Shown here piece after piece: positions 3,317 through 18,344 of a DNA stretch of 28,334 nt; positions within the stretch are counted from its first letter, which is position 1; each line of letters begins with the position of its first letter. This DNA is from Nitrospinae bacterium RIFCSPLOWO2_12_FULL_45_22 (GTDB lineage: Bacteria; 2-12-FULL-45-22): positions 1-28,334 of the forward strand of contig MHDQ01000127.1 in assembly GCA_001803565.1 (NCBI GenBank). The letters are read 5' to 3'. Position numbers and translations under genes: made by a program. The notes under the pieces are model-generated. The model worked only from the letters and a program-made list of their open reading frames with translations, had not been told where the DNA came from and ran no database searches.

Positions 3317-4555
3317 TTACTTAGTGCTTGATTCTGCCAGGAGGTTTTTTTCATCTCCAGCTAATTGCACTCTAATTTCCTCTTTTTTAATGACGCAAGG
3401 TTCATATAGATAAAATATATTAGCATTGGTGCTAACTTCTTCCTTAAGGGATATAGGGAAGAGAAATTCCTCCCTGCGGACCTCCTTGGGCGCTATCCGG
3501 TTATCTTTAATGATTTTGCTGCCTTTAATCAAGATATCACTCTCCTCGGATAATATATTCCTATCTTTGTCTATCACAATCTTTTCATATACCCGGCTGC
3601 TACTAAAGGCTTGATTATTGCCGGTTTTAACCTCTACCAAAAGGGCTAACTTTCGATTAGGCATGCCTGTAGGGATTTTATGGCCGGCACCATGGTTTTC
3701 TATTTCTACCACCATCGTCATTTCTTCTGGTTTCCTTACAATATCCTTAATATTAACTCTTACCGCCTCTTTCAGCATATCTAAAGTATTAACCCCTACA
3801 CAGCACAGAAGGGCTTCTTGTTTTTTTCCTTTTATAAGCTGAGGGTCTTCAAAAGCCAGGGTCCCCTTTCTCTGGGGTATATGGCAATAATGGCATTGTT
3901 TGCCATCAGCGGCATAGGGACTCTCTGTCCATTCAGAAAAGGTGCTCAGAATAGCCAACCCATGCTCGTTTTTATGCTCATGACAACCGGCACAAAAATA
4001 GGAGGTATTGAAGAGGAAGGCATATTGGGTCTCATGGGCAGGCGAGCGAGCATCTTTCAAGGGACCCCATTTGGTCAATCCTAGCTTGATCTCAAAGGGA
4101 TTCTCCTTATTAGTTAGATTCACGTCTTTGACGCTATGGCAAAAATCGCAGGTTACACCCTCTTTGGTGATTTCCTGTTTTAGATCATAATCATTATTAA
4201 TTAATACAGCCGGGGCATGGCACTTCAAGCAATTATATTTTGCTGCACCAGCAGTATTCTTATATACCTCCGCATAAGCCCCATTAAAGACAGGATCTTC
4301 TAAGGACTTAGCATGCATGGATTCTTTCCAGGTGTTATAAATGGATTGATGGCATTTGCCACAGATTTGACTACTGGTAAGAGAATCCTTCTGTAATTTA
4401 GGGATGTGTTGGGCAGTTGTTTTTTTAGTTTTGAGGTCTACGCTCTTTGTTTGGCCATGCTGGGCCTTTAGATTACGCCCCATCAAGATAAATAGAAGAG
4501 TAAGAGCAACTGCTAAGGCCCCCCCCCTATGGATCCAAAAAGGATTATTTTTCAT
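3317..4555 (-). CDS. Pentaheme c-type cytochrome, c554-like
   Basis: Periplasmic electron carrier of 412 aa. An N-terminal hydrophobic segment (about 12-26) serves as signal or anchor. Five CxxCH sites start at C65 (CGKCH), C109 (CLKCH), C136 (CDFCH), C188 (CAGCH) and C221 (CHYCH). The spacing and the IYNTWKESMHAKSLEDPVF segment after heme 1 match the cytochrome c554/c' type. After the hemes is a beta-rich tail of about 160 residues that opens with GAGHKIPTGMPNRKL, a motif common to multiheme cytochromes of this kind. The ATG is preceded by AGGAGGAGGG at good spacing. A run of nine G on the coding strand lies at codons 10-13. It follows the triheme cytochrome by 128 nt and is probably cotranscribed. 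The redox partner is probably the triheme protein or the quinone-linked complex upstream; that is inference. Confidence 0.88.
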   Translation of the reverse strand: MKNNPFWIHRGGALAVALTLLFILMGRNLKAQHGQTKSVDLKTKKTTAQHIPKLQKDSLTSSQICGKCHQSIYNTWKESMHAKSLEDPVFNGAYAEVYKNTAGAAKYNCLKCHAPAVLINNDYDLKQEITKEGVTCDFCHSVKDVNLTNKENPFEIKLGLTKWGPLKDARSPAHETQYAFLFNTSYFCAGCHEHKNEHGLAILSTFSEWTESPYAADGKQCHYCHIPQRKGTLAFEDPQLIKGKKQEALLCCVGVNTLDMLKEAVRVNIKDIVRKPEEMTMVVEIENHGAGHKIPTGMPNRKLALLVEVKTGNNQAFSSSRVYEKIVIDKDRNILSEESDILIKGSKIIKDNRIAPKEVRREEFLFPISLKEEVSTNANIFYLYEPCVIKKEEIRVQLAGDEKNLLAESSTK

Positions 4556-4683
4556 GGTGTATCCCTCCTCCTATGCTTTGGTCTCCACCTCAAAAAGACC
4601 TGAAGACCAAGATATCCTCTCCCCCATCCTTTTTCCGGGTAGAGTAGACTTTTTATTTGAATCTCTTCCGGTGAGGGGATAAT

Positions 4684-5640
4684 TTATGGTTGGTTTTTGA
4701 TAGTCACTATATCCCCGTCAGTCTTAAATTTTTGTATCGAGAGGAGATAGGCAGTTATATTGCCCATTTCCCTTTCAGAAAGCTTGACCGGGACAAGACC
4801 GCTATTTTTCATCTCTTGCTCCATTTCTGGAAAATGGTTCCACATTAAGCCTGCCACCTGTCCAACTGTCCGGGGAACGCCCTTATTAATCTGGCTGATG
4901 ATAGTAAACTCCGGCCCGGTATTTCCTCCTTTCCCACGGATAGAATGGCATCTTAGGCAAGTATTTTGCCTTATTACCTTTTCCCCTTCTTTTTGATCTC
5001 CAAGGGTAAGATAAACCTTTTCTTTCGGTGGGCTAAGTTTTTGGATATATGCCAGTAAATCGACTAAATCACCACCATTAAACTGTGGCCAGGGAATATT
5101 TGTCCTCTTCATCTCTTTTTTCATCTCCGGGGCATGGTTCCACATCCGGGCAATCCAGGAGACCGGGTTAGCGAACTTAGCCTTTGGTCTCAAATCAGGA
5201 GCAATCTTGTTATGGCACGAATTACAACTCTTCTCGGCTAAGACCTTTTCTCCTTTATCTGGATTACCCGGCCCATCCAAAGTCTGGATAAATTTGAGGA
5301 AAGAGACTAGAGCGGGAACCTCTCCCGGAGAAATCCTAATGGATAAGAGTTTATTATTACCCATCTTTATCCCTTCTTGTATGGCATGCTTCCCGTATTC
5401 AGTTGCCAGCTCTCCAAAAGGGAATCCGCTCAGATTGCTCTCTCCTTTTCCCCCCATATCCCAGATAGGGTGGCAATTTATGCACCCTTTTTCGTAAAAG
5501 ATTTTCCAACCCCGCTTAGGTTCCTCCAGAGTATAGGCATTACCCTCAGACAAAAGGAGTAAAGAGGGGCAAAATATCGATACAATAAGGAGTGAAAAGG
5601 CGATAAATCTTATTCTCTTAAGCTTCTTATCCACTTTCAT
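4684..5640 (-). CDS. Triheme c-type cytochrome with repeated class I modules
   Basis: Predicted periplasmic cytochrome of 318 aa. It has a signal segment at about 11-32 and three CxxCH sites: CINCH (C53), CNSCH (C139) and CLRCH (C228). Modules 2 and 3 are clearly related. Each heme site is followed about 30 residues later by a W-N-H-x-P-E-M block (ARMWNHAPEMKKEM and GLMWNHFPEMEQEM) and then a LLAYIQ / TAYLLSIQ helix. This suggests duplication of a class I cytochrome unit with Met as possible distal ligand. I chose ATG at 5640, which has a perfect AGGAGGTGAT in front; an ATG 33 nt upstream is in frame but has no such site. The gene lies between the slipin gene (270 nt upstream) and the pentaheme cytochrome, so it may be a late part of the sigma-54 operon or have its own promoter. 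Confidence 0.88.
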   Translation of the reverse strand: MKVDKKLKRIRFIAFSLLIVSIFCPSLLLLSEGNAYTLEEPKRGWKIFYEKGCINCHPIWDMGGKGESNLSGFPFGELATEYGKHAIQEGIKMGNNKLLSIRISPGEVPALVSFLKFIQTLDGPGNPDKGEKVLAEKSCNSCHNKIAPDLRPKAKFANPVSWIARMWNHAPEMKKEMKRTNIPWPQFNGGDLVDLLAYIQKLSPPKEKVYLTLGDQKEGEKVIRQNTCLRCHSIRGKGGNTGPEFTIISQINKGVPRTVGQVAGLMWNHFPEMEQEMKNSGLVPVKLSEREMGNITAYLLSIQKFKTDGDIVTIKNQP

Positions 5641-5910
5641 ATCACCTCCTTTTAAATTTGTTGGTATTGTCAAAACTTCACCACAGAGTACACAGAGAAA
5701 TCATTAAATATCAACCTGCCTGTGCCACGGCAGACAGGTAAGTTGTGAGGATTTTGATTTCCTCCCCTCTGTGCTCTCTGTGGCTTTATATTGTTCCCTC
5801 TCTTTTCATAAAACTTTTGACATTACCAATTTGCTAGGACACAGATTTATAAATTTTTTTATCTTTTGCATATTCCGTTGCATCCTGGAAATCCGGTCAA
5901 TAAAGTGGTA
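5641..5910. other. Intergenic gap with two inverted repeats
   Basis: This 270-nt gap separates the slipin and triheme cytochrome genes. It contains the large CACAGAG inverted-repeat pair (listed separately) and, between its arms, a smaller palindrome at 5714-5738 (ACCTGCCTGTGCC with GGCAGACAGGT). The first bases carry the ribosome site of the triheme gene. I see no ORF and no convincing promoter. Confidence 0.6.
5681..5783. repeat. Inverted repeat of the CACAGAG dispersed type
   Basis: Arms CCACAGAGTACACAGAG (5681-5697) and CTCTGTGCTCTCTGTGG (5767-5783) are reverse complements at 15 of 17 positions and flank 69 nt. A third related copy, single and in the orientation of the right arm, lies at 19831-19847 (TTTGCGTGCTCTGTGGT). 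Recurrence in unrelated gaps marks it as a dispersed repeat rather than a local operator. Confidence 0.65.
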
Positions 5911-6879
5911 TTAGTCTATGGCTAGTTCTTTAGCTTTTTTGAATTCCTCAGCCATGGCTGTCAACCCTGCGGCTGTGCCTAGATTCATACTATCAATCGC
6001 TGTTGATGGCACCAGCACTATAGTAGAGTTCCCTTTAAGCCCCTCAAACAGCATATTCATGGCCCTTAAATGCAGGGCAGTAGGGTTATTCACATAGACA
6101 CGGGATGCATCCTCGAAGCTCTTGGCTATCTGTCGTTCTGAATCACCCAGGATTACCCGGGCCTGACGCTCTCTTTCAGCCTGTGCTTGCATAGACATAG
6201 CATCTTGCAGCGCTAGCGGGATAATTACATCCCTTATTTCCACGGCCTCAATCTCGATCCCCCAGGGGATAACCCGGTCATGGATAAGTTTTTTGAGATC
6301 CGTGTCTAGTTGTTCCCTCCCCACTAGCATCTCTGAAAGATCATATTTGCCAATAATGTCTCGCAAGCCTGTCTGGGCTGCCCAACTCACCGCCATCGAA
6401 TAATCCTCTACCTCAAGAGCCGCCTTCATGGGGTCAGTCACCTTCCAGAAAAGTACGGCATCCACATCCACTGGCACATTATCGCGGGTCAAGGTCTCCT
6501 CTGCCCGGAAGATAGTGGTTATCACTCGAAGGTCAATCCAATACGGGATAGAGTCGATTATAGGTATAATAGTAAAGAACCCTGGTCCCTTGGTGCGATG
6601 ATATTTACCAAGCCGCAGGATGATGGCCCTTTCCCATTGATCTGCTATCTTGATCATGCTGGCAGCAATGACGGCTAATATGAGAATCATTATGCCGGGC
6701 AAGATATTTAAGGTGGCAATGGATAGCAAGATGCCTACCAGGAATATTATGCTGGCGATAAGGAAAGATAAGGGATTAAGACCAAATTTTTTCCTTGCCC
6801 GTTTGAGCAGTATCTGTTCCATTAAGGCCCTCTCCCTCTGATCTCCCCGTGCTCCTTCATTGGAAGATATATTAGCCAT
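5911..6879 (-). CDS. Slipin / stomatin-like SPFH (Band 7) membrane protein
   Basis: Membrane-anchored scaffold protein of 322 aa. A basic, charged N-terminus of about 30 residues is followed by two adjacent hydrophobic stretches (about 37-78), typical of slipins. The Band 7 domain then starts with IADQWERAIILRLGKYHRTK and contains GPGFFTIIPIIDSI, DVDAVLFWKV, the DLSEMLVGREQ segment, and EVRD-like EAVEIRDVIIPLALQDAMSMQ, followed by the AERERQARVILGDSERQ coiled coil. No NfeD partner gene is adjacent. The start has AAGGAGGGAG in front and overlaps the end of the TorD-ferredoxin gene by 8 nt, so it is translationally linked to the respiratory operon. SPFH proteins organise membrane microdomains. 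A role in assembling or stabilising the respiratory complex is inferred from position only. Confidence 0.92.
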   Translation of the reverse strand: MANISSNEGARGDQRERALMEQILLKRARKKFGLNPLSFLIASIIFLVGILLSIATLNILPGIMILILAVIAASMIKIADQWERAIILRLGKYHRTKGPGFFTIIPIIDSIPYWIDLRVITTIFRAEETLTRDNVPVDVDAVLFWKVTDPMKAALEVEDYSMAVSWAAQTGLRDIIGKYDLSEMLVGREQLDTDLKKLIHDRVIPWGIEIEAVEIRDVIIPLALQDAMSMQAQAERERQARVILGDSERQIAKSFEDASRVYVNNPTALHLRAMNMLFEGLKGNSTIVLVPSTAIDSMNLGTAAGLTAMAEEFKKAKELAID

Positions 6880-8149
6880 ATTCGCTCCCTCCTTCTAAAA
6901 AGTGAAATGATTTATCCTTGGTATTTGTTGCCCAGGGTGGACCTAATCCAGGGATTAGCTTTCGCCCGCGGCACCGTTCACATAGCTGAAGCAATGATAA
7001 TAATAAATCTCTTTCTCCTTCCTGCCCAAGCTTATGAAGGACATAGGCCTGACCGGGTAGAGGTATGATACCTCCACACTCCTGACACCTCCTAAGGGGA
7101 CTCCTCACCAATATCTCCTTGGTGGGCTCCCGGTTATCTCCGGGAGATCCTTTTCTAAGCACCTGCAACGCCTTTTCCGGACAATTTTCAATGCAGACAA
7201 AACATCCAGAGCACCTTGCCGGATAAAAGTTAAGCTGAACTTCCTCTTCCAATAAGGATATCTCTAATGCACCATCCAGGCACTGCAGGGAGCAAATCCC
7301 ACAAAAGGAGCAATCTTCTTTTTTAATATGTAACCAAATTGTCCTCTCCTTACCTGTATGCTCCTGTTTAAGGGGCGGGCACAGAATCCCACCACCATGC
7401 CTTAACGGCATTTTTCCATCCATACCAGGAATTTGGTGGCCTTTTGTTTGGTTGTCTGGAGAGACCTTTTTTTCGCCCAATGCTCCTTCTCCTAATAAAC
7501 TTTTCAAATAGCGCAGATCAGCCTTGATCCATCTTAGAAGGAGCCTTGCCAGAGAGGGATAAAGCGGTTCTGCCGCGTGCTCTTGCAAAGAATCAACAAA
7601 AGAGGGTAGCCACCATAGAATATGGCGGGAGAGAAACTGATATTGTTTTTCCCACCACTTTTCTGGTAAGTCGGCAAAAACTTCCTGCTCACAGAGAAAA
7701 CTCATAAACTCTAACTCGAGGATTAGGTGATCCGGCAAATCGTAGAAAGTTTCAGCTATCTCCAGGCCCTCTCTCCTATAGAGCTTGAGGGCATCTATAG
7801 CGGGCTGAGCCATAACCGACTGGCCTCGGGGATGGATATATGCAGATGCATATGGAGGTATTAAGGGCCTACCGGGGCCATAAAAGAGACGATTATAGGC
7901 TACCTCTAAAGCCAATAGGCCGTGCTCTTTATATCCTTTCTTGAAAGGGCAGAGAATATCTGTGACCTCTTGCAAAATTGATTGGATTTCAACGGGTGGG
8001 GGTTGATCTTCCGAACTACCTGACCAATCTTTACACCATCTGGTAATCTGCTGCAGAAACTCCTCGAGATAGGAATCTCCTTCTGGGCGCGAGAAAGCCC
8101 GGGCCATTAGGACATAACCTCTTTGTCGGATTTCAGCTAATAAGGCCAT
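6872..8149 (-). CDS. TorD-family chaperone fused to dicluster ferredoxin and CxxC domain
   Basis: Three-part cytoplasmic protein of 425 aa. Residues 1-220 are all-helical and match the TorD/DmsD/NarJ chaperone family: YNRLFYGPGRPLIPPYASAY is the characteristic middle motif, followed by LPDHLILELEFMSFLC. After a linker (about 222-270) come two ferredoxin motifs: C280, C283, C286, C290 and C313, C316, C319, C323, enough for two [4Fe-4S] clusters. The last part has C355/C358 and C390/C393, a possible zinc-ribbon or rubredoxin-like site. TorD proteins bind the Tat signal of their Mo partner and hold it until the cofactor is inserted; the Tat-tagged Mo subunit three genes upstream is the obvious client. 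The gene overlaps both neighbours (13 nt with the NrfD gene, 8 nt with slipin) and has AAGGAGA before its ATG. The fusion is unusual. Confidence 0.85.
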   Translation of the reverse strand: MALLAEIRQRGYVLMARAFSRPEGDSYLEEFLQQITRWCKDWSGSSEDQPPPVEIQSILQEVTDILCPFKKGYKEHGLLALEVAYNRLFYGPGRPLIPPYASAYIHPRGQSVMAQPAIDALKLYRREGLEIAETFYDLPDHLILELEFMSFLCEQEVFADLPEKWWEKQYQFLSRHILWWLPSFVDSLQEHAAEPLYPSLARLLLRWIKADLRYLKSLLGEGALGEKKVSPDNQTKGHQIPGMDGKMPLRHGGGILCPPLKQEHTGKERTIWLHIKKEDCSFCGICSLQCLDGALEISLLEEEVQLNFYPARCSGCFVCIENCPEKALQVLRKGSPGDNREPTKEILVRSPLRRCQECGGIIPLPGQAYVLHKLGQEGERDLLLSLLQLCERCRGRKLIPGLGPPWATNTKDKSFHFLEGGSEYG

Positions 8150-9690
8150 CGGTATCTCCTTGCTGATTCACGCTTGGGAAGGATACAGATTTGTAGAGGC
8201 AAGCTCCATAAGGTAATAATACCTAATACCCAGATAGCCGGTGCGGGTGGCGTTTCCCGAGTAATGATCCCAGTAGCTATAAGTCCTACCCCGGCTAGTA
8301 GAGTTAAAGGGATAGTAAAACGTTTTATTAATCCTAAGATGTTTTTTATCCTCTCATAAGGAGAGACATAGTAAGGTAATATTACCGGGCTATGCGTAGC
8401 TACGCGGACTTCTTCGGGCAGCTCTAAGACCGGCAATACTTTAACCAGAACGGTATAAAGGAAGGCACAGAAGATAAAGCTCCCGGCGATCAGACTCCAA
8501 TCGAAAAAAGTAGGCATATATGGGGCGATTTTATAAGGCAGGTGGGGGTGATAGAAAGAGGGTACTACAATAAGATAGCGCCAGATCCACATGGATATAA
8601 AGACCGGGATAGCTGCAAGAACTGTCAGCTTTATGCTGCATATCCGGGGATTGGCGCCCTGGATAAAAAATATCCAAAAAGGTACGACCATTCCCAGGAT
8701 AGTAGCTGGCCAGGTGATCTTGGCAAATCGGCCAAAAAGCACATCATTAAACACTACCCTTTCGGCTGCCGGTGGGGCATAGGTCCCGGTTAGCCACTCA
8801 CTGAATAGAAAATAGAGATATAGCCAGGTGACAAAACCTAGAAATACCCCCAGGCCTTTGAATATCCGCGGATAAAATATCTCTTGCCAGCCAAAGGTCT
8901 GCCGCAGGATAGCCAGGACTATAATGACAAAAGAGAAGCCTGTAACTATTGCCCCTAAGACAAAATAGGGGGCCTGGAAGGGATTAAACCATCCGGGCCT
9001 CCCGGCTTGCATCCCAAAGATATACCCATAGACTGAATGGACTGATACCATTATGGGAAGGATTATGACAGCCAGCCACCAGACCACCCGCTCATGGGTC
9101 TGACGGCTCTGGGGGGTGTCCGAATACCCCAGGGCCAGTAGTTTATATAGCCAGCGCTTATGAGAAGGCAATACCAGGGAGCAGATATATAAATCACGGC
9201 GCATAGCCAGGTATAAGTAAACACTACTACCAATAAGATATGTAGTGATGACAGTCATGGACCAGACAAAGGGGGCATGAAAGCGGCCATGCTTAACCAC
9301 ATTAAAGATAAAGCGATCTGGCCGGCCTACATCCATAGATATATTCAATACTGCTGTGGTTAAGGAAGCAAGGGTAACCAGCTCTGCTATGCGGGCTAAC
9401 TGCTTATATCGCTCTAAGTTTAATATGCGTACTACCGCAGAAATAGCGATCCCGACGTGGCTGATGCCAATAAAATGGACAATATCAGCCACCAGTATCC
9501 CCCAGATAGCACCCTGGGAGCCCTGGCCAGTAAAGTGATGCCCCTCAAAAAATTGGAGCTGAAAATTATAGAAAAGCCAGATTACCCCGGCCAGGAGCAA
9601 TCCAAAAAAGGGATAAAACATCCAACTGGTATAAATTAAGGGACGCAACAATAGTTCTAATTCTCTGTCTTCTATATATCCTCGCGCCAT
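8137..9690 (-). CDS. NrfD/PsrC-type quinone-binding membrane subunit
   Basis: Polytopic inner-membrane protein of 517 aa with about ten hydrophobic helices; the first is at about 20-42 and the last at about 478-503. Family features are the LVADIVHFIGISHVGIAIS helix, DVGRPDRF (residues 120-127), FVWSMTVITTYL and the HSVYGYIFGMQAGRPGW segment, as in the NrfD/PsrC/HybB family. Ten-helix members of about 400-500 aa occur as QrcD and ActC, whereas classic NrfD/PsrC has eight helices and about 320 aa, so the size points to the Qrc / alternative complex III side. It should exchange electrons between the membrane (mena)quinone pool and the FeS subunit. Its start overlaps the FeS subunit by 19 nt and has AGGAGAAGGGG; its end overlaps the chaperone gene by 13 nt, so these genes are tightly coupled. 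Confidence 0.92.
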   Translation of the reverse strand: MARGYIEDRELELLLRPLIYTSWMFYPFFGLLLAGVIWLFYNFQLQFFEGHHFTGQGSQGAIWGILVADIVHFIGISHVGIAISAVVRILNLERYKQLARIAELVTLASLTTAVLNISMDVGRPDRFIFNVVKHGRFHAPFVWSMTVITTYLIGSSVYLYLAMRRDLYICSLVLPSHKRWLYKLLALGYSDTPQSRQTHERVVWWLAVIILPIMVSVHSVYGYIFGMQAGRPGWFNPFQAPYFVLGAIVTGFSFVIIVLAILRQTFGWQEIFYPRIFKGLGVFLGFVTWLYLYFLFSEWLTGTYAPPAAERVVFNDVLFGRFAKITWPATILGMVVPFWIFFIQGANPRICSIKLTVLAAIPVFISMWIWRYLIVVPSFYHPHLPYKIAPYMPTFFDWSLIAGSFIFCAFLYTVLVKVLPVLELPEEVRVATHSPVILPYYVSPYERIKNILGLIKRFTIPLTLLAGVGLIATGIITRETPPAPAIWVLGIITLWSLPLQICILPKRESARRYRWPY

Positions 9691-10373
9691 TCCCCTTCTC
9701 CTAAATAGATAACCTTGGGATGAGTGCCTAGCTCTTCCAAGAGCCGGAAGGCCCGGCGGCTCCGGGCTAGCTTTGACACCATACTTTCTGGATCATCCAG
9801 GTCGCCAAAATAACGGGCCTTGGCTGGACAAGTCTGTACACAAGCAGTAACATATTCCCCCTCCCGGATAGGCCGGTCTTCTGACCGGGCCTTCTCCCGG
9901 GCCTTCTGCCAGCGATGGACACAAAAGGTACATTTTTCTACCACACCTAAGGGTCTGAGCGATACATCAGGGTTAAAAGCACTCTGCATTATTTCTGGCC
10001 AATGGCCCTTGCTCCAATTATAGAATCTCCTGCTATAGGGACAGGCACACATACAAAGCCGGCAGCCAATACAGCGGGCAAAGATCTGAAAAACTATCCC
10101 CTCTTCACTCTTATAGGTGGCCCTTACCGGGCAGACTTTTATACAGGAAGGCCGATCACAATGCATACAGGGAAGTGGGGTAAAACGTATGCGAGAATAT
10201 CCCTGCTCCCCTTCTTCCTTGAAGGGTAGTACCTGATTCCAGAAGATGGCTCTACCTTTAGAGGCATGATCGGGACCAGCAAAGGGGATATTATTCTCAT
10301 TCCGGCAAGCAATCGTACAGGCCTGACAAGCCGTACATCTATCCAGGTCTATCACCATACCCCACCTTGGCAT
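9672..10373 (-). CDS. Four-cluster ferredoxin subunit (PsrB/DmsB/QrcC type)
   Basis: Electron-transfer subunit of 233 aa with sixteen cysteines in four ferredoxin motifs: C13/16/19/23, C69/72/77/81, C101/104/107/111 and C148/151/178/182. It starts directly with MPRWGMVIDLDRCTACQACT, without an export signal, as expected for a subunit carried across the membrane with its Tat-tagged partner. The segment YSRRFYNW after the third motif is standard in this family. It should link the Mo-type subunit to the NrfD-type membrane protein. The ATG has AAGGAGGGAGG upstream and lies 18 nt after the Mo subunit stop. All sixteen ligands are cysteines; none is replaced by Trp or Asp, so four [4Fe-4S] clusters are predicted. 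Confidence 0.95.
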   Translation of the reverse strand: MPRWGMVIDLDRCTACQACTIACRNENNIPFAGPDHASKGRAIFWNQVLPFKEEGEQGYSRIRFTPLPCMHCDRPSCIKVCPVRATYKSEEGIVFQIFARCIGCRLCMCACPYSRRFYNWSKGHWPEIMQSAFNPDVSLRPLGVVEKCTFCVHRWQKAREKARSEDRPIREGEYVTACVQTCPAKARYFGDLDDPESMVSKLARSRRAFRLLEELGTHPKVIYLGEGEWREDI

Positions 10374-10391: not shown

Positions 10392-12842
10392 TTAAACTTT
10401 TACTAAACGTACCCGGGTAGAGCCCCAGGAAACATTACCCGTAAGATAATTAAATTCCGTCCCTATAATTTTATTCAGGTTTTCTCCCCTATTTCTTGCC
10501 CAGCGGCCATAAGAGCTATGGCCATATTCGAAGGGGACATTTAGGACATGCCGCTGAGCCCCTTCAAAGATCAGGGCTTTAAATTGGACCCGGCCAATAG
10601 GCGACTCTACCCATACCCGCTCTTCATCCTCTATTCCCAGAATGTGAGCATCTTCAGGGTGGATCTCCAGCCAGGGTTCCCAGCTCTTGCTATGCTGGAG
10701 GCCAAAGATTTCTTGCAGGTGGGGCTGATTGCCTCCTCTACCTTCGGCATGGGGCATAACCTTATAGGTATTGATCAAAAAAGGATATTCTTTTTCATCC
10801 CCTATGAACCGCAGGGGCTCATAATGGGGCATAAAAACCTCATCTCCCTGGCCGGATAACTGCAACTTTTCTATTAATTGCTCAAAGGCCTTTTCATGGG
10901 TTAATCCTTCTCTATCTGCGATCCTTTGTACTAGTTCATCTATCTTTAATTTCATGAGCAAAGAATAAAATTCAAACTTCCTTGAGGGGGTCCTTATAAC
11001 TTCCTGCCATTGAGCAAACGAATATGGTGGTGCCCACCAACCCCCATTATCTAAGAGGGCAGCCCAGAACTTTTGGGGTTCTTTTTCTTGGATAGAACCC
11101 CTTCCAGCGGTCCTTATTCCTTCTAAGGCATCTCTAACCATATCCAGATAATTATCTAAAAAGGCCGCCCCCACCGTTCCTCCAATGGCCTTAGCAATAG
11201 CGATCATTACATCCCCTGTATGCCTGGTATTATATAAAGGCTTAACCACAGGCTGCCTGATACCTAATAGAGGGTAGCCTGTACTCGAAGGGATCTCATC
11301 ATCTTCCCACCGCTCTAGATAAGTATGGTCCGGTAGGATTAGATCAGCCATATGGGTAGATTCATCCAAAAAGGGAGAAAAACTTACTATAAAAGGAATC
11401 TTAGTAAACGCCTCATAATATCTACTTATTTGTGGGCTAGAGAAGAGGGGATTAGTATAATATAAAAAAAGAGTATCTAATTTGTAGGGGTACCCTGCCA
11501 GGATATTATTGGGCAAGGTGGCATAGGCACTGGATGCAAAAGGAAATGTTTCTGAGCCGGCTAAGTCTATTCGAGGTTGTTTCAATCCCTTTATCGCTCC
11601 TGCATCCAAAGTCGGCTCCCACCACTCTTTGAAGGGTGGTCTTCTTTGAATCATTACCCCGCCCGGTATATCTAGAGAACCTATGAGGGCATTAAGAGAA
11701 TGGACAGCCATACAGGTATATAGCCCGTTGGATTGGCCACTAATCCCCCGGCCATATATAGCAATACCAGGTCTATGGCTGGCAAATTCCTGAGCAGTCC
11801 GTTCAATTACCTTCGTGGGGACACCGGTAATAAGGGAGACCTTTTCGGGGGGGTATTGTTCTATTACCAAATGTTTGAAGCCTACATGCTCCTTGCCAGA
11901 ATCATCCCGCCAGTCATCGAAGCCAAAGGTATAGTTTTTTACAAAAGTATGATCATAGAGATTGTCTCGGATAATGACATGGGCCAATCCTAAAGCCAGA
12001 GCCCCATCGGTACCTGGTTTTACTCCTATCCATTTATCGGCTTTGGATGCCGATATGGAATAACGGATATCTATTTGGACTAATTTAGCGCGGATTCCTG
12101 GCCGACCTCGATGCATTTGACCATACATGCGTAACCGGTAGGCAGCGGGCACTCCTGCCTCGAGTAAACTGGTGCCAAAACAGAGTATATAATTGGTATT
12201 TTCCCAATCATAGGCAAAATAGTCCTTAGCGCCTTGCATAAAATAGTGAGCTGACATGGCCCCTTCCATCCCCAGATCATGACTAATATTGTTAGGAGAC
12301 CCATAGACCTTAAGGAAGCGGTCCATGAGCGGACCCATATGGCCCCGGTAGTGACCCCCAATGACTGCTACTCTATGGCTTTCCCCCTTACTTCGGAGTT
12401 TAGCAAGTCGAGTCCCCAATTCTTTAATGGCCTGTTCCCAGGAAATGCTTTGCCATTTCCCTTCCCCTCGCTCACCAACCCGCTTCATTGGACCCCTGAT
12501 CCTGTCAGGGTCATAGAGCACCTGGAGCCCATTTTGGCCTTTGGGACAGAGCCCCCCCAGATTGGTGGGATATATAGGATTCCCTTCAATCTTTACTGCC
12601 CGGCCTTCAACTACCCTCACCTGAATGCCACACCCACCCGGGCATTGTAGACAGATACTTTTATAGTAACGCTCCTCCCCTAGCGACCATTCATCTGCCC
12701 CGGGCACTGGTGGTTTATCAATTTCATATTCTTCCGGCCATCCTTCCTCCAGGAGTTCTTCTATTCGACAGCTAGTCATGCTTCCAGCTAATAGGGCAGC
12801 ACTAGCCGATTTTAGGAAGGTTCGACGGGTAACTTTTGACAT
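10392..12842 (-). CDS. Tat-exported molybdopterin oxidoreductase, large subunit
   Basis: Large subunit (816 aa) of a complex iron-sulfur molybdoenzyme of the DMSO reductase superfamily. The N-terminus has a Tat signal (RRTFLK at 6-11, then a hydrophobic stretch ending in GSMTSC, C25, perhaps a lipid site). C64, C67, C71 and C99 form the [4Fe-4S] site. Molybdopterin-binding segments follow, including VQIDIRYSISASKADKWIGV and PGTDGALALGLAHVI, and the C-terminal domain (about 690-816) carries HPEDAHILGI and the NVPFEYGHSSYGRWA region. Where PsrA/PhsA-type enzymes have a Mo-ligating Cys, this protein reads NISHDLGMEGA (185-195) with no Cys. It lies between the pentaheme cytochrome and the FeS subunit, in the order of qrcABCD. 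Polysulfide, thiosulfate, arsenate or quinone-linked functions are all possible; the substrate is not known. AGGAGGAG precedes the ATG. Confidence 0.92.
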   Translation of the reverse strand: MSKVTRRTFLKSASAALLAGSMTSCRIEELLEEGWPEEYEIDKPPVPGADEWSLGEERYYKSICLQCPGGCGIQVRVVEGRAVKIEGNPIYPTNLGGLCPKGQNGLQVLYDPDRIRGPMKRVGERGEGKWQSISWEQAIKELGTRLAKLRSKGESHRVAVIGGHYRGHMGPLMDRFLKVYGSPNNISHDLGMEGAMSAHYFMQGAKDYFAYDWENTNYILCFGTSLLEAGVPAAYRLRMYGQMHRGRPGIRAKLVQIDIRYSISASKADKWIGVKPGTDGALALGLAHVIIRDNLYDHTFVKNYTFGFDDWRDDSGKEHVGFKHLVIEQYPPEKVSLITGVPTKVIERTAQEFASHRPGIAIYGRGISGQSNGLYTCMAVHSLNALIGSLDIPGGVMIQRRPPFKEWWEPTLDAGAIKGLKQPRIDLAGSETFPFASSAYATLPNNILAGYPYKLDTLFLYYTNPLFSSPQISRYYEAFTKIPFIVSFSPFLDESTHMADLILPDHTYLERWEDDEIPSSTGYPLLGIRQPVVKPLYNTRHTGDVMIAIAKAIGGTVGAAFLDNYLDMVRDALEGIRTAGRGSIQEKEPQKFWAALLDNGGWWAPPYSFAQWQEVIRTPSRKFEFYSLLMKLKIDELVQRIADREGLTHEKAFEQLIEKLQLSGQGDEVFMPHYEPLRFIGDEKEYPFLINTYKVMPHAEGRGGNQPHLQEIFGLQHSKSWEPWLEIHPEDAHILGIEDEERVWVESPIGRVQFKALIFEGAQRHVLNVPFEYGHSSYGRWARNRGENLNKIIGTEFNYLTGNVSWGSTRVRLVKV

Positions 12843-12973: not shown

Positions 12974-13501
12974 CTACCTGTGGCATGCAGAACAATCATT
13001 AGATACCTTCCTCTGCTCGTGGCAGTCCATACAGGTGTCCATATTCAAAGTAGCCATGATGGGCTTGTCCAAAGGTAGTTCCTTTTCTCCGATATCCCCA
13101 TGGCAGGTTTTACAAGCTATCTTGCCTATTGCCGCATGCCGTTTATGGGAGAAATAGACATGACGAGGCAACTTGTATAGCCTTATCCAGGGTATTTGGC
13201 CTCCATTGGATGAATATTTCTCCAGAATATCAAAGGGTGGCGCGGTATTCCCCTCGTGACACTCCAGGCAAATTTCTAATCTGGGTATACCGGGATCAGT
13301 CCTAGTAAAGACAAACAGATGGCAATTCTCACATTCTAATCCGCTTTCGTTATGGATCTTATGGTTGAAGGGAAAAGGTTGTTTTAAAGAGTTAGAATTA
13401 AACGGATTGATTTTTTGGACATTGGCTTGGGCCAAAATAGATAAAAATACTATTCCCCCAATAACAGTGAAAAAAAGCCCCAAGAATAAAATCTTCTTCA
13501 T
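12974..13501 (-). CDS. Pentaheme cytochrome c subunit (QrcA/ActA-like)
   Basis: Small multiheme cytochrome of 175 aa. An N-terminal hydrophobic segment (4-24) ends near AQA and may be a cleaved signal or an anchor. Five CxxCH sites are present: CENCH (57), CLECH (78), CKTCH (130), CMDCH (157) and CSACH (170). Two histidine-rich blocks, QPFPFNHKIH and LPRHVYFSHKRHAA, precede sites 1 and 3 and supply likely distal ligands. The stretch PWIRLYKLPRHVYFSHKRH is the pattern I know from the cytochrome subunit of alternative complex III and Qrc (ActA/QrcA) and of cytochrome c7-like relatives. It is directly upstream of the Mo subunit, again as in those complexes. Five sites resemble ActA more than the hexaheme QrcA. 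AAGGAGGGG precedes the ATG. It would pass electrons between soluble cytochromes and the complex. Confidence 0.9.
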   Translation of the reverse strand: MKKILFLGLFFTVIGGIVFLSILAQANVQKINPFNSNSLKQPFPFNHKIHNESGLECENCHLFVFTRTDPGIPRLEICLECHEGNTAPPFDILEKYSSNGGQIPWIRLYKLPRHVYFSHKRHAAIGKIACKTCHGDIGEKELPLDKPIMATLNMDTCMDCHEQRKVSNDCSACHR

Positions 13502-13514
13502 AACCCCTCCTTTC

Positions 13515-13877
13515 TTAAGTACATGAGATCTTTTGGTTTAGCCGGTCCAGATTTAAGGGTTCCTCAAAACAATCGAAAAAATCGATCTTATTGTCCTCTA
13601 TTCCATCATCATTGAACTCCTTTCCTAGTAGTAGAATGATATGGATATTAGGATTAATCTTCTTTATTATGGGAGCTATATCATAACCGGTTAAGCCCGG
13701 TAGCTGTCCCTTTAGAATGGCGGCATCGATCCTTTCCCTAATACTAAGAGAGAGGGCTTCTTTGCTGCTCTCTGCCTGGATCACTTCGTGACCTTTGGCA
13801 GAAAAAAAATGGGCAATTTGTTCTCTCTCTTCCTTATTGTCATCTGCTATAAGGAGCCTTTTTCTTTTATCTATCAT
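13515..13877 (-). CDS. Degenerate receiver-domain protein (pseudo-receiver)
   Basis: Stand-alone CheY-like fold of about 120 aa, first gene of the sigma-54 operon. The N-terminal acidic patch is intact (LLIADDNKEERE), but the phospho-acceptor is replaced: the normal L-D-x-x-L/M-P-G position reads AAILKGQLPGLTG, a Lys for the Asp. The switch Thr/Ser is Leu-Gly (IILLLGKE) and the conserved Lys of the K-P motif is Glu (CFEEPLNLDRL). All three phospho-switch residues are therefore lost, so it cannot act as a classical phosphorylated receiver. ATG 13877 (AGAGGT eight bases upstream) is preferred over an in-frame ATG at 13925, which has only a weak site. It ends 13 nt before the pentaheme cytochrome. 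It might bind another protein or small ligand, such as the kinase or the activator upstream. Function unknown. Confidence 0.75.
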   Translation of the reverse strand: MIDKRKRLLIADDNKEEREQIAHFFSAKGHEVIQAESSKEALSLSIRERIDAAILKGQLPGLTGYDIAPIIKKINPNIHIILLLGKEFNDDGIEDNKIDFFDCFEEPLNLDRLNQKISCT

Positions 13878-13963
13878 AGCCAAACCTCTGGGCTCCAAGG
13901 ATTTATTTGATGGGCAAACCTTCATACCCTAACGGACACCACGAGGCATAAATAACTTGAACT

Positions 13964-14011
13964 GTAGCGTGAAAGTCTGCTTTCATAAATGCCAGCAAGC
14001 TGGTGCGCTAC
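13964..14011 (-). promoter_or_regulatory. Structured leader element, predicted three-way junction
   Basis: Three perfect nested stems: outer GTAGCG / CGCTAC (13964-13969 with 14006-14011), inner TGAAAG / CTTTCA (13970-13975 with 13980-13985) and CCAGC / GCTGG (13992-13996 with 13999-14003). It lies about 80-125 nt downstream of the predicted sigma-54 start and before the pseudo-receiver start. A competing pairing (GGCAT with ATGCC further downstream) can be drawn. It does not match a riboswitch class I know. Confidence 0.4.
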
Positions 14012-14099
14012 CTTATTTGTTAATGGAACCAAAATGCTATTTTCAGGACAAACAAATAAAGGTTTATGAAGGATTCTAAAACCAACTGAATAGAGACTG

Positions 14100-14115
14100 A
14101 GCAAATAGCGTGCCT
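14100..14115 (-). promoter_or_regulatory. Sigma-54 (RpoN) promoter of the respiratory operon
   Basis: The minus strand reads AGGCACGCTATTTGCT here. This fits the -24/-12 consensus TGGCACG-N4-TTGCT at all positions but the leading T, with the required GG-N10-GC spacing. Transcription should start near 14089 and run leftward into the pseudo-receiver and cytochrome/Mo genes. An NtrC-family activator is encoded immediately upstream on the same strand, which strongly supports the call. Confidence 0.8.
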
Positions 14116-14130
14116 TTACCGATTTCAAGC

Positions 14131-14171
14131 AAAAAAAAAGCCACCTAATTCTTACTTAGGTGGCTTTTTTT
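14131..14171. terminator. Intrinsic terminator, potentially bidirectional
   Basis: A perfect 11-bp stem, AAGCCACCTAA (14138-14148) with TTAGGTGGCTT (14156-14166), has a 7-nt loop and is flanked by nine A on the left and a T run on the right, so it has a U-tract on either strand. On the minus strand it ends the activator transcript about 210 nt after its stop and insulates the sigma-54 promoter beyond it. Confidence 0.88.
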
Positions 14172-14379: not shown

Positions 14380-15765
14380 CTAATCCCTCTTCTCAAGCCT
14401 TCGCCAGATAGTACTGGTACTAATTCCTAGAATCTCTGAGGCCTTCCTTCTATTCCATTTAGTGGCTTGCAGGACTTCCAAAATATAGTTCCTTTCCACT
14501 CTCTCCAGGGAGGGAAAGGATTCTAGCTGAGTACTATTTTTGGCCGTTCTTTTTTGCGAAATACTATTTTCTCGTCCTCTCTCCAGCAATTGGTTAAAAC
14601 TTTCAGGTTCGATCGAATCGCCTTCTGCCAATATAACTGCCCTCTCGACAACATTTTCTAGTTCCCGGACATTGCCAGGCCAGCTATAGTTAAGTAAAAG
14701 TGTCATAGCCTCTTCACTAAAACCCTGGATCTTCTTTTTAACTTCATTATTGTATTTTTTCAAGAAATGGTTAGCCAACAAAGGGATATCCTCTTTTCTT
14801 CCTCGGAGAGGTGGGAGAAAAACAGGAACCACATTTAACCGATAATAAAGTTCTTCCCGAAACTCACCTTTCTTTATAGCCTCTTTCAAGTCTTTATTGG
14901 TAGCGGCAATAATACGAACATCCACCGAGATACTTTTTTCGCTCCCCACTGGTTTTATTTCTCTCTCCTGTAAGGCCCGTAACAACTTAACCTGGAGATC
15001 CAAACTCATATATCCTATTTCATCCAGAAAAAGGGTACTCCCATGAGCCAGCTCAAAACTGCCTTTCCGGCTCCTCATAGCCCCAGTAAAGGCCCCTTTT
15101 TCATGACCGAACAGGTCACTTTCTAATAACTCTGCTGGGATAGCCGCGCAATTAACCGTAATCATGGGTTTATGGGAACGGTGACTCCTCTTATGGACAT
15201 CTTCGGCAACTAACTCTTTCCCGGTCCCAGTTTCTCCGAGAATCATTACGGTCGAGTTGGTCTTAGCTATTTTATTGATTAATCTATCAACCTCCCTCAT
15301 CTCCTGGCTCTCTCCCAGTAAGACCCGTTCTTCCTTATTTATCCTTAATCTTTCTCTTAAATCCCTATTCTCTATCACCAATCTCTGCTTTTCTAGGGCT
15401 TTCTTTACCAGCATTCTCAATTCTTCGGGAGTAAAGGGTTTGGGAAGATAGTCGTAGGCTCCCTCCCTCATTGATCTAACAGCGGTTTCTATGGTAGCAT
15501 AGCCAGTTATCATAATAACCTCTATCTGGGGATTGATTTTCTTTATTCTTTGCAATAATTCAATTCCATCCATCCCCGGCATCTTTATATCAGCCAATAC
15601 TACCTGATAATCTTTAGCCCCTATATTTTCTAGGGCTTCTTGGGCCCGGTTAGCAGTATCAATACTGTACCCTTCTTTAGTTAGGGCTTGGGTACAGGCA
15701 TCCAGGGTATCCTCTTCGTCATCTACTATTAATATCCATATGCCAGTTTGAGACTGTCTCTCCAT
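14380..15765 (-). CDS. NtrC-family sigma-54-dependent response regulator
   Basis: Activator of RNA polymerase-sigma-54, 461 aa from ATG 15765 (GAAGGGA upstream; a TTG 18 nt earlier is possible). Numbered from that TTG, the receiver (about 15-130) has D21/D22, phospho-acceptor D65 (VVLADIKMPGMDG), T/S in MITGYA and K115 (YLPKPF). The AAA+ domain (about 155-385) has Walker A GETGTGKE (183-190), the sigma-54 contact loop GAFTGA (230-235), Walker B FLDEIG and the arginine-finger region LYYRLNVVPVFLPPLRGR. The C-terminus is a Fis-type helix-turn-helix (WNRRKASEILGISTSTIWRRL). All active residues are present. It lies just upstream of the sigma-54 promoter of the respiratory operon and downstream of the CxxCH kinase gene, its probable partner, from which it is separated by inserted DNA. 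Confidence 0.95.
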   Translation of the reverse strand: MERQSQTGIWILIVDDEEDTLDACTQALTKEGYSIDTANRAQEALENIGAKDYQVVLADIKMPGMDGIELLQRIKKINPQIEVIMITGYATIETAVRSMREGAYDYLPKPFTPEELRMLVKKALEKQRLVIENRDLRERLRINKEERVLLGESQEMREVDRLINKIAKTNSTVMILGETGTGKELVAEDVHKRSHRSHKPMITVNCAAIPAELLESDLFGHEKGAFTGAMRSRKGSFELAHGSTLFLDEIGYMSLDLQVKLLRALQEREIKPVGSEKSISVDVRIIAATNKDLKEAIKKGEFREELYYRLNVVPVFLPPLRGRKEDIPLLANHFLKKYNNEVKKKIQGFSEEAMTLLLNYSWPGNVRELENVVERAVILAEGDSIEPESFNQLLERGRENSISQKRTAKNSTQLESFPSLERVERNYILEVLQATKWNRRKASEILGISTSTIWRRLEKRD

Positions 15766-15815
15766 CCTATATCCCTTCTCCAATTATCCTGAATCCAGAG
15801 CGAATGCTCTTTATG

Positions 15816-15941
15816 CTAAGAAAATAGTGGATCTTTTTTAGCATTTTGTAGTAGATGCTGGATGAACTCTAGGATTTGGTGAGCTTCCTCGCCGCTCAAT
15901 AATTTGATCATCTTATGTAGTGATTCTTTAACCGAACTCAT
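15816..15941 (-). CDS. Small antitoxin-like ORF, 41 aa
   Basis: Short ORF with a good ribosome site (AGAGGT, eight bases before the ATG), too short for usual gene finders. The product starts MSSVKESLHKMIKLLSGEEA and continues with HQILEFIQHLLQNAKKDP. This helical pattern, with an E-E-A-x-x-I/V-L-x-F-I core, is typical of small antitoxin-like proteins of toxin-antitoxin pairs. It lies 15 nt after the DUF433-like remnant in the same direction, and no toxin gene follows. It probably came with the same inserted DNA. Assignment to a named family would need a profile search. Confidence 0.5.
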   Translation of the reverse strand: MSSVKESLHKMIKLLSGEEAHQILEFIQHLLQNAKKDPLFS

Positions 15942-15956
15942 AATCGATACCTCTAA

Positions 15957-16142
15957 TTATGCACCTACTTCAAAAACCTGTTCTTCGCTAACTAACTCAG
16001 CGGCATATACATATAATAAAACAGCTTGTATATCTTCAAATTCCAATTCTGGATAATCTTCAAGCAAATTTTGCTTCAATAAAGAAATCCCGCCAAATGG
16101 ATCATCTGACGGGAACTTTCTATGAGTTGAGCCATCAAAAAC
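15957..16142 (-). pseudogene. DUF433-like antitoxin remnant, N-terminus lost
   Basis: The minus-strand frame ending at TAA 15957-15959 encodes LLKQNLLEDYPELEFEDIQ followed by AVLLYVYAAELVSEEQVFEV. The I/L-L-E-D-Y-P-x-L-x-x-E-D-I-x-A-x-L-x-Y-A-A pattern is the C-terminal half of DUF433 proteins, usually antitoxin-like partners of PIN/DUF5615 toxins. Upstream in this frame there is no start codon and no recognisable N-terminal half. An ATG in another frame (MAQLIESSRQMIHLAG) stops after 19 codons, consistent with a frameshift near 16090. The boundaries are approximate. Confidence 0.55.
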
Positions 16143-16153
16143 GCTGCCCGGCT

Positions 16154-16381
16154 TCAGTCGCCCGCCGTCATCAGCACCTGCTTTGCCTCTTCCGGAAGTT
16201 CAATAGGTGCAAACATTGATGCTGGATAAAGATAGCCGTCAGGCTCTGACTTGTCCTCATCAATGACGCGAAGCATGTTGTGCGCTTCTGCCTCCGGGTC
16301 TGACAACGTACGGTAAACTTTGCCCACGATCAGGCTTGCCGGATTGCTGTCATTGTTGATACAGATCACAAAATCGCTCAT
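16154..16381 (-). CDS. Small conserved hypothetical protein, 75 aa
   Basis: Complete small gene with AGAGGA before the ATG. The product begins MSDFVICINNDSNPASLIVG, continues with KVYRTLSDPEAEAHNMLRVI and DGYLYPASMFAPIELPEEAK, and has no signal or membrane segment. I recall similar 70-80 aa proteins (K-x-Y-x-x-L-x-D-x-x-A then G-x-L-Y-P) in scattered mobile or toxin-antitoxin-like contexts, without a known function. Its ATG overlaps the stop of the upstream fragment by ATGA, so the two were once a two-gene unit. G+C is visibly higher than in the flanking kinase and regulator genes, and it uses few of the ATA codons that they favour, which points to transfer. Confidence 0.7.
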   Translation of the reverse strand: MSDFVICINNDSNPASLIVGKVYRTLSDPEAEAHNMLRVIDEDKSEPDGYLYPASMFAPIELPEEAKQVLMTAGD

Positions 16382-16509
16382 CGTATCTTCCTCTTAATTT
16401 TGAAATCCTTACGACCGATGCCATGCGCTTCAAACCAGTGTATCTCAGCTTGGCAAATTGTACCATACCTCACCACCTCCTCTCTGGCATCGGGGTCAAA
16501 AAATCTGGT
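16378..16509 (-). pseudogene. C-terminal fragment of the upstream partner gene
   Basis: Open frame of 43 codons with no start codon, bounded by TAG upstream, ending IGRKDFKIKRKIR and overlapping the next gene by ATGA. It contains the run REEVVRYGTICQAEIHWFEA, which reads like the conserved C-terminus of a small protein family. The AEIHWFEAHGIGRK-type ending is familiar to me from small hypothetical proteins often paired with a gene like the one downstream, but I cannot name the family. The N-terminal part is missing, apparently cut by the junction with the recombinase fragment. Confidence 0.5.
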
Positions 16510-16562
16510 CTAATGGACTCTTAATTGCCATTAGATCCTTACTGGTGACATGGGTATAAATC

Positions 16563-16721
16563 TCAGGTGATATGCCTCTCCTCCTTCTGCCCATGAAAAA
16601 GCCATCTTTTGGGATGGGACTCAAGATAATATTCCTTCAAGGCTGCTAAGGCTACTCCTGAAAGCAAGGTATATCTATCCTTTCTACCCTTTGCCCCTTT
16701 AATATGAATCAATTTTCGCAT
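16563..16721 (-). pseudogene. Tyrosine recombinase (integrase) fragment
   Basis: A 52-codon open frame from ATG 16721 to TGA 16563. It encodes RKLIHIKGAKGRKDRYTLLS, then ALAALKEYYLESHPKRWLFH and GQKEERHIT. This is the middle of the catalytic domain of XerC/D-like recombinases, including the conserved G-K-G-x-K-D-R-x-x-x-L and W-L-F-x-G-Q motifs. The N-terminal half and the C-terminal HxLRH...GH...Y catalytic part are absent, so it is inactive. No ribosome site precedes the ATG and an in-frame TAA lies 15 nt upstream. It marks the edge of the inserted DNA. Confidence 0.75.
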
Positions 16722-16767
16722 TATATTACACGAGCTTTATGACAAAGAATAGCCACACCCTAATGAA

Positions 16768-18264
16768 TTAACTTTTCCTGACCGTAATGGGTAAGCTAAC
16801 CTTAAAGATGGTCTTAAATTCCTTTCCCTCTGTAGGGGAAGAATTTTGTGTCTCTACCCATATCTTGCCACTATGGCGCTCAACAATTCCATAGCATATG
16901 GATAATCCCAATCCTGTTCCCTCTTCTTTGGTGGTATAGAAAGGCTCAAATATCTTATCTAAACACTCCTTCGGTATCCCAGGGCCATTATCCTTTACTC
17001 CAAAAATGATACTTTCCTTGTCCTCCCCTAAATGAGTAAATACCTCGATCTTACCACCGTTATGTAGAGATTGGATGGCATTTTGGATCAGGTTAATGAA
17101 GACTTGTTGGATCTGATTTTTATCGCAAAGGACTTGAGGTAATGCGGGATCAGTATCTAATTGAACATCTATTTGCTGGATCTCCATATGATGCCGCAGC
17201 ATCATTAGCGATTTTTCTGCAATATCATTGATATTATTCGAGGTCATAACACTTTCTGACTCTCTGGTATAATCTAATAAGGCGGAGACAATATTTTTAC
17301 TCCTTATAGTATTATCCACGATCTTTTGGGTATTCTTATATTTTATATCCCCGGGCTCTAATTCTTCTAAAAGTAGTTTAGAATAGAGCATTATATTACC
17401 TATGGGGTTATTAAGTTCATGGGCAATACCGGCCGCTAGTTGGCCAGTAGCAGCCAGCTTCTCCGACTGAACCAGGTGACGTTGAATCTCTTTTAAGTTA
17501 GTAGTCATCCGATTAAAATGGTCTGCCAGATGGGATATCTCGTCCTTGCCCGGTATCTCTATCTTCTCTTCCAGCTTCCCCTCCCCTATTAGTTTAGAGG
17601 TTTTTTCTAAAAGCTTTAGTTTTTTTATAACCAATCTATTCATCAAAGAACTTATCACCAGTATTAATAAGCCAACCATTATAACCACCAGGAGAAACAA
17701 TTTACCTAAATTAGAAGAGAGCTGTCGATTAATATCGGCTAAAGAAAAATCCATCAAAATAATCCCATTGATTTTAACCTTGGGATCATGACACTCATGG
17801 CAGGGTTCCCGATTCAAGATAGGGCTAATATTGCGCAAAAATTCTCCTCCCTGTTTATCCTTTAAAAAGATGCTCTTGGTCCTTGTCTCTGGGGCTAATT
17901 GATGACAGATCTGACAGGTAGCATCTTGCTTATTCATTATCTTTCCTATGACCCCTTTATCAGAAGAGACTTTTATAACGCCTTCTTTATTAAGAATCAC
18001 AATATTTTCTACCCCGTCTTGCCTAGCCAGCTCTTCTACCATGCCATGGAGGATAAGGGGTCGGTTCATTAGCATGGCGTATTCCAAATTGTTCTGGACC
18101 AAGCTACTTAAATAAGTGACAGAGACTTGAAAACTGCTTATAAGCTGCTCTCGATGGAAGTTATATAAAAAGTAAAAAAAGACACCAAGAAAAACTGTTA
18201 GTATAGATATAGTGGCGGAGATTATTTTGAATTTCAATCTGTTGTAAAAAGAGATATTGAGCAT
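16768..18264 (-). CDS. Sensor histidine kinase with two periplasmic CxxCH motifs
   Basis: Membrane kinase of about 498 aa. Numbered from an alternative GTG start at 18273, membrane helices lie at about 17-37 and 191-212. The periplasmic domain between them contains two c-type heme motifs, CQICH (C120-H124) and CHECH (C158-H162), in a context like other two-heme sensor domains. HAMP spans about 212-262, the phospho-acceptor is H285 (AAGIAHELNNPIGN), and the ATPase boxes are NLIQNAIQS, DNGPGIP, FEPFYTTKEEGTGLGLSI. It should sense redox state or a heme ligand such as NO, CO or O2 and phosphorylate the NtrC-type regulator encoded downstream. ATG 18264 is chosen over GTG 18273; neither has a strong ribosome site. 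A sigma-70-type promoter lies 80 nt upstream. About 1 kb of inserted DNA now separates it from its probable partner. Confidence 0.9.
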   Translation of the reverse strand: MLNISFYNRLKFKIISATISILTVFLGVFFYFLYNFHREQLISSFQVSVTYLSSLVQNNLEYAMLMNRPLILHGMVEELARQDGVENIVILNKEGVIKVSSDKGVIGKIMNKQDATCQICHQLAPETRTKSIFLKDKQGGEFLRNISPILNREPCHECHDPKVKINGIILMDFSLADINRQLSSNLGKLFLLVVIMVGLLILVISSLMNRLVIKKLKLLEKTSKLIGEGKLEEKIEIPGKDEISHLADHFNRMTTNLKEIQRHLVQSEKLAATGQLAAGIAHELNNPIGNIMLYSKLLLEELEPGDIKYKNTQKIVDNTIRSKNIVSALLDYTRESESVMTSNNINDIAEKSLMMLRHHMEIQQIDVQLDTDPALPQVLCDKNQIQQVFINLIQNAIQSLHNGGKIEVFTHLGEDKESIIFGVKDNGPGIPKECLDKIFEPFYTTKEEGTGLGLSICYGIVERHSGKIWVETQNSSPTEGKEFKTIFKVSLPITVRKS

Positions 18265-18344
18265 TACTCTCACTCACTTTTCGGATCGCCTTGGGATAGG
18301 AAGCATTTAGAGAGGGGATGGTCAAAATCTATAACTTTACCGCA

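Follow-up and report, generated by a model that had tools for sequence, protein, structure and literature searches.

Genes encoding sigma-54 activators (EBPs) are known to lie beside their sigma-54 targets in Desulfovibrio (PMC4641369) and in the RpoN regulon of Geobacter (PMC2725144), and in both cases the EBP gene adjoins its sigma-54 promoter and the targets include electron-transfer functions, i.e., the Ohc complex in Desulfovibrio (PMC4641369) and cytochromes in Geobacter (PMC2725144). The circuit of promoter, activator and target in one line, which a first-pass annotation had proposed for the DNA studied here, is thus by itself a known arrangement. The one-component EBP genes reported from these bacteria are mostly divergent from, or located inside, the target operon (PMC4641369, PMC2725144). 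In the 28,334-nt stretch analysed here (the window), the EBP gene likewise adjoins a predicted sigma-54 promoter, but here a terminator separates the EBP gene from the promoter that directly follows it, and the first gene of the operon codes for a pseudo-receiver (Table 1). The target operon resembles that of the QrcABCD menaquinone reductase of sulfate reducers, with cytochrome, molybdopterin-family, Fe-S and NrfD-like subunits in identical order, except that the window operon encodes a TorD-like chaperone, which suggests a cofactor-loaded enzyme. The Geobacter sensors 3b47 and 3b42 are single-heme chemoreceptor domains. The protein in the window that resembles them is instead a histidine kinase carrying two CxxCH motifs; the likeness to these sensors (PDB 3b47, 3b42; PF21563) is weak at the sequence level and covers the C-terminal, heme-motif portion of its sensor, as found with 3b47, and the match of the kinase to PF21563 (Mcp40H-20_sensor) was weak and below the Pfam cut-off. 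In the CmrRST system of Clostridioides difficile, a pseudo-receiver is linked to a normal kinase/regulator pair and was proposed to act on that pair (PMC12632262). However, CmrT is an OmpR-family response regulator and its gene is in an operon with those of the kinase and regulator, whereas the window pseudo-receiver is a lone domain encoded in the target operon. A limited search of the open literature gave no case in which a lone pseudo-receiver is the conserved leader of an operon targeted by a diheme kinase/NtrC pair, and such a leader appears to be new relative to the known EBP-target arrangements.

The putative promoter element AGGCACGCTATTTGCT was found on the minus strand with exact GG-N10-GC spacing, and compared with TGGCACG-N4-TTGCW it showed a single departure, A replacing T at position 1. 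Using an approximate RpoN weight matrix with weights derived from the general consensus, it was the top RpoN site of the 28-kb window (16.1 bits, compared with 14.1 bits for the runner-up), in agreement with the first-pass annotation, which had called it an almost perfect -24/-12 element. Since T was present at position 1 in all other EBP-linked sites of the genome (see below), AGGCACGCTATTTGCT is slightly off the local consensus. The element had also been placed between the terminator of the activator gene and the first gene of the cytochrome operon. The hairpin separating the activator stop codon from the promoter was shown to be symmetrical and strong (-21.4 kcal/mol, z -6.6), which bears out the terminator, whereas the first gene of the operon turned out to encode a stand-alone receiver-domain protein and not a cytochrome. 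A riboswitch or structured leader was rejected, as there was no Rfam match at gathering thresholds and the leader had a folding z of -0.13.

Table 1. Features of the locus, with positions in the window (1 to 28,334).
Feature	Position	Strand	Remarks
Membrane sensor histidine kinase (HAMP, HisKA, HATPase_c)	16768..18273	-	Two CxxCH heme-binding motifs; predicted periplasmic domain
First CxxCH motif of kinase (CQICH, residues 120-124)	17902..17916	-	In predicted periplasmic domain
Second CxxCH motif of kinase (CHECH, residues 158-162)	17788..17802	-	In predicted periplasmic domain
Weak gene fragments (integrase-like, DUF433-like), 985 bp between kinase and activator	15784..16767	-	Both matches weak
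NtrC-type response regulator/sigma-54 activator	14380..15783	-	Start TTG 15783 or ATG 15765
Intrinsic terminator hairpin (A-tract/stem/T-tract)	14133..14171	.	Bidirectional; divides activator gene from promoter
-24/-12 (RpoN) promoter element AGGCACGCTATTTGCT	14100..14115	-	Predicted start near 14089
Predicted untranslated leader, 212 nt	13878..14089	-	Folding z -0.13, nothing unusual
Stand-alone pseudo-receiver, operon gene 1, 120 aa	13515..13877	-	Better start 13877; AGAGG 7 nt upstream
Multiheme cytochrome c, QrcA-like	12974..13501	-	5 CxxCH counted
Molybdopterin oxidoreductase catalytic subunit, Fe4S4 motif	10392..12842	-	ArrA/PhsA/QrcB relatives
QrcC-like Fe-S subunit	9672..10373	-	288 of 400 bits needed for QrcC
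NrfD/QrcD-like membrane subunit	8137..9690	-	Part of the Qrc-like complex
TorD-like molybdoenzyme chaperone fused to ferredoxin domain	6872..8149	-	Suggests a cofactor-loaded enzyme
SPFH/band-7 membrane protein	5911..6879	-	Also in module loci L135 and L136
Two more c-type cytochrome genes	4684-5673 and 3317-4555	-	Within 3317..5673

The host genome was found to encode RpoN (PF04552, E 1.5e-53). In genome-wide pattern searches, TGGCACNNNNNTTGCW (TGGCACN5TTGCW type) was detected 16 times, with the majority of sites intergenic, compared with a single match to the reversed pattern, which indicates that this genome uses such promoters. The exact string GGCACGNNNTTTGCW occurred only once in the genome, at the window site, and among seven matches to the non-T variants VGGCACN5TTGCW (2 for the control) the window site was the sole intergenic one. 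At least 23 near-complete EBP domains were present in the genome. Up to 1200 nt on either side of 23 EBP genes (20 stretches around EBP genes, the window and its paralog) were scanned for sites of at least 12.5 bits, and 11 of the 23 genes were shown to have a strong sense-strand site 41-672 nt downstream (12 sites in total), compared with no antisense site downstream, one sense site upstream and no antisense site upstream. The window promoter is one of these EBP-linked cases, situated 265 nt downstream of its EBP gene. Thus, this genome habitually places a sigma-54 promoter and its target after an activator gene. Flagellar operons of the flgBC/fliE type are classical sigma-54 targets, and a flgBC/fliE-like operon, as read from the sequence, was among the EBP-linked targets. 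Another EBP-linked sigma-54 operon (L100, contig C12 of the genome), located after TGGCACAATCTTTGCT, opens with a gene for a 111-aa protein similar to an isolated histidine-kinase dimerisation domain, and a second -24/-12 site lies behind this gene, ahead of a multiheme cytochrome gene; the 111-aa protein may be a further signalling module in leader position.

According to the first-pass annotation, the promoter would be refuted if its -24/-12 bases were not conserved at related loci, and the element passed this test. A kinase gene, a regulator gene and a Qrc-like operon were found to follow one another in the same order in a paralogous contig of the same genome (L038), in a Poribacteria MAG (L061) and in a Blastocatellia MAG (L062), with sense-strand -24/-12 elements between regulator and operon (TGGCATAAAAATTGCT, TGGCACATGGATTGCC, and TGGCGCGTAAGCTGCA, respectively); in L062 the element is directly 3′ of the regulator gene and other genes intervene before the QrcA-like gene. 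Five further loci (L042, L083, L078, L080, and L082) were also found to have sites ahead of their Qrc-like operons, and none of these sites was equalled by more than 6 of 1000 shuffles. The presence of equivalent sites ahead of homologous operons in the paralog, the two MAGs and other lineages makes the circuit well supported. No sigma-54 site was found upstream of the homologous operons in L039, L043, L035-L037, L041, and L081, and the complex is therefore not always under sigma-54 control. The regulators of L081 are of NarX/NarL type, and a site-like match at position 6557 of this locus was dropped because it is inside a kinase gene. Two divergent -24/-12 elements were observed between a cytochrome c554-like gene and the Qrc-like operon of L082 (8593-8608 and 8914-8929), and an opposite-strand TGGCACGCTATTTGCT in L062 (8061-8076) differs from the window element at the first base only. 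In L038, nested GCAAGGCTTCAGCCTTGC-type inverted repeats were seen approximately 225-170 nt upstream of the -24/-12 element at 4006, which have the appearance of a dispersed repeat and not of a regulator site.

A scan of the whole window for the consensus with up to two mismatches gave 1 match where 0.8 were expected, which is not significant and proves nothing alone, and therefore the weight rests on position and conservation. This chance-level result over 28 kb and the off-consensus first base are what one would expect if the element were a chance match and the operon relied on a sigma-70-type promoter or on transcripts reading through from the activator gene. We consider this very improbable, since the score of AGGCACGCTATTTGCT was reached only twice when the 800 nt preceding the QrcA-like gene were dinucleotide-shuffled 1000 times, sites are conserved in related loci, a strong terminator is located just upstream and sigma-70-like sites around the promoter were at chance level. 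The element at 14100-14115 is thus almost certainly a sigma-54 promoter, as judged from these comparisons.

It is very likely that this promoter would be driven by the adjacent regulator. With at least 23 EBPs in the genome, another EBP could act at it, leaving the adjacent regulator to act elsewhere, and two further observations fit such a situation: no activator-binding palindrome above chance (195 of 500 shuffles) was found between the activator gene and the promoter, and in L078, L080, and L082 similar operons have a site but the examined stretches yielded no close homolog of the activator. However, the coupling of EBP genes to sense-strand sites throughout the genome, together with the order kinase-regulator-site-operon, which was retained in L038, L061, L062, and L136, makes control mainly by another EBP improbable. 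This coupling and the conserved synteny also support the promoter/activator/target circuit of the first-pass annotation, from which we infer the link to the adjacent activator. An inverted repeat, GGTGATTAAAATTAACCACC, which precedes the element by about 160 nt, was rejected as an activator-binding palindrome because such quality is expected by chance.

The earlier reading of the circuit overlooked two parts, the sensor kinase with its two heme motifs and the leader gene that encodes the pseudo-receiver. Both CxxCH motifs of the kinase were invariant across four aligned kinases, and the sensor is predicted to carry c-type hemes and may sense the periplasmic redox state. All domains of the window regulator were intact, including a receiver with the phospho-Asp, an AAA+ domain with Walker motifs and GAFTGA, an AAA lid, and a Fis-type HTH (HTH_8). 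In five related module loci the gap between kinase and regulator genes ranged from -3 to 50 nt, whereas in the window the two genes are split by the 985-bp insertion, so that the two may not be co-expressed.

Among the EBP genes checked in the genome itself, two were adjacent to kinases with two CxxCH motifs, one in the window and one on contig C251, and the sigma-54 operons of both open with a lone receiver, as do those of L061 and L062. A profile built from these four kinases was searched in 386 genomes, and the neighbourhoods of the matches were examined. As the receivers in the four loci had been noticed before the profile was built, these loci are no independent test. In the whole set, 21 kinase-EBP pairs were found, the four discovery loci included, and three new diheme kinases belonged to the module clade (L135, L136, and L142). 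A lone receiver followed the regulator in L135 and L136 and was absent from L142 (2 of 3), compared with a short lone receiver in none of 14 kinase-EBP pairs outside the clade; for this independent part the one-sided exact probability is approximately 0.02 (3/136, calculated by hand), whereas the value of 0.0001 obtained when the four discovery loci are included is biased by discovery. In the kinase tree, the six module kinases and that of L142 were grouped (support 94/85). The combination of diheme kinase, NtrC-type regulator and stand-alone receiver was thereby found at six loci (window, C251, L061, L062, L135, and L136), all accompanied by a sigma-54 site, which in L135 was weak (best element AGGCACGATTTTTGTA, 11.1 bits); no site of at least 12 bits was found in L142. 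The targets are cytochrome/molybdoenzyme genes in most of the six loci. The L136 kinase was closest to that of the window (44% identity), its receiver also showed Asp replaced by Lys, and TGGCACGCAACCTGCA was found at the expected place ahead of Fe-S, NrfD, SPFH, molybdoenzyme, and cytochrome genes. The target in L135 consists of an 11-CxxCH cytochrome and an SPFH gene, and in C251, as read from the sequence, it is a CoA-transferase-like gene and not a respiratory complex. An SPFH/band-7 gene was observed to accompany cytochrome/molybdoenzyme operons in three lineages (window 5911-6879, L135:223-1188, and L136:6683-7675).

The start of the pseudo-receiver gene was set at 13877 because of its spacing from the ribosome-binding-like AGAGG. 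The receiver fold was assigned from Pfam matches (Response_reg, 49 bits). The phospho-acceptor Asp was replaced by Lys and the conserved Lys by Glu, and the protein thus fits the published description of pseudo-receivers (PMC12632262) and cannot accept a phosphoryl group on Asp. The module receivers were open and in the same gene order in six loci of different lineages, with 13-28% identity to the window copy and varying active-site losses. As the pseudo-receiver would be produced only when the operon is on, its most likely role would be feedback on the kinase or on the receiver of the regulator, a role that we propose tentatively. The low identity and varied active-site losses among the six, the absence of a receiver in L142 and the cupin-like protein in its place in the paralog L038 could also be explained if the pseudo-receiver were a passive remnant of a duplicated regulator with no role in the circuit, but this is unlikely, since an open frame and a receiver fold in all six loci are not expected of a dead gene. 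The cupin-like protein is encoded at L038:4209-4571, and the kinase of L038 is without CxxCH motifs. The six loci are spread over several bacterial phyla. Under the feedback reading, their diheme periplasmic redox kinase, together with the NtrC-type regulator, would switch on a sigma-54 operon led by a lone pseudo-receiver; by binding the kinase or the regulator's receiver, this protein could report the output of the operon to the sensor and so provide dedicated product-level feedback.

All scored Qrc subunits were under the NCBIfam equivalog cut-offs (QrcA 90 of 180, QrcB 301 of 440, and QrcC 288 of 400 bits). Identification of the complex as the Qrc menaquinone reductase was therefore rejected, and the complex was named Qrc-like. 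The cytochrome genes at 3317-4555 and 4684-5673 are probably the distal part of the operon.

Taken as a whole, the locus is likely to be best explained by a cis-encoded redox-responsive two-component circuit. The periplasmic redox state would be sensed by the membrane kinase, the two CxxCH motifs of which are predicted to bind c-type hemes, and the kinase would control phosphorylation of the NtrC-type regulator encoded nearby. The phosphorylated regulator would bind upstream of 14115, and its GAFTGA-containing AAA+ domain would open the sigma-54 polymerase at the -24/-12 element. Transcription would then proceed from near 14089, with the terminator shielding it from the activator gene, through the pseudo-receiver gene and subsequently the genes of a Qrc-like cytochrome/molybdoenzyme/NrfD complex that may exchange electrons with the quinone pool. 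The feedback of the pseudo-receiver on the kinase or the regulator's receiver would be the least certain step.

On this basis, a likely input (periplasmic redox state), a regulator and a promoter can be assigned to a respiratory complex of a barely sampled phylum, and inspection of the region downstream of each EBP gene offers a simple route to such circuits. With a conserved lone pseudo-receiver, the role of non-phosphorylatable receivers becomes testable in one compact locus.
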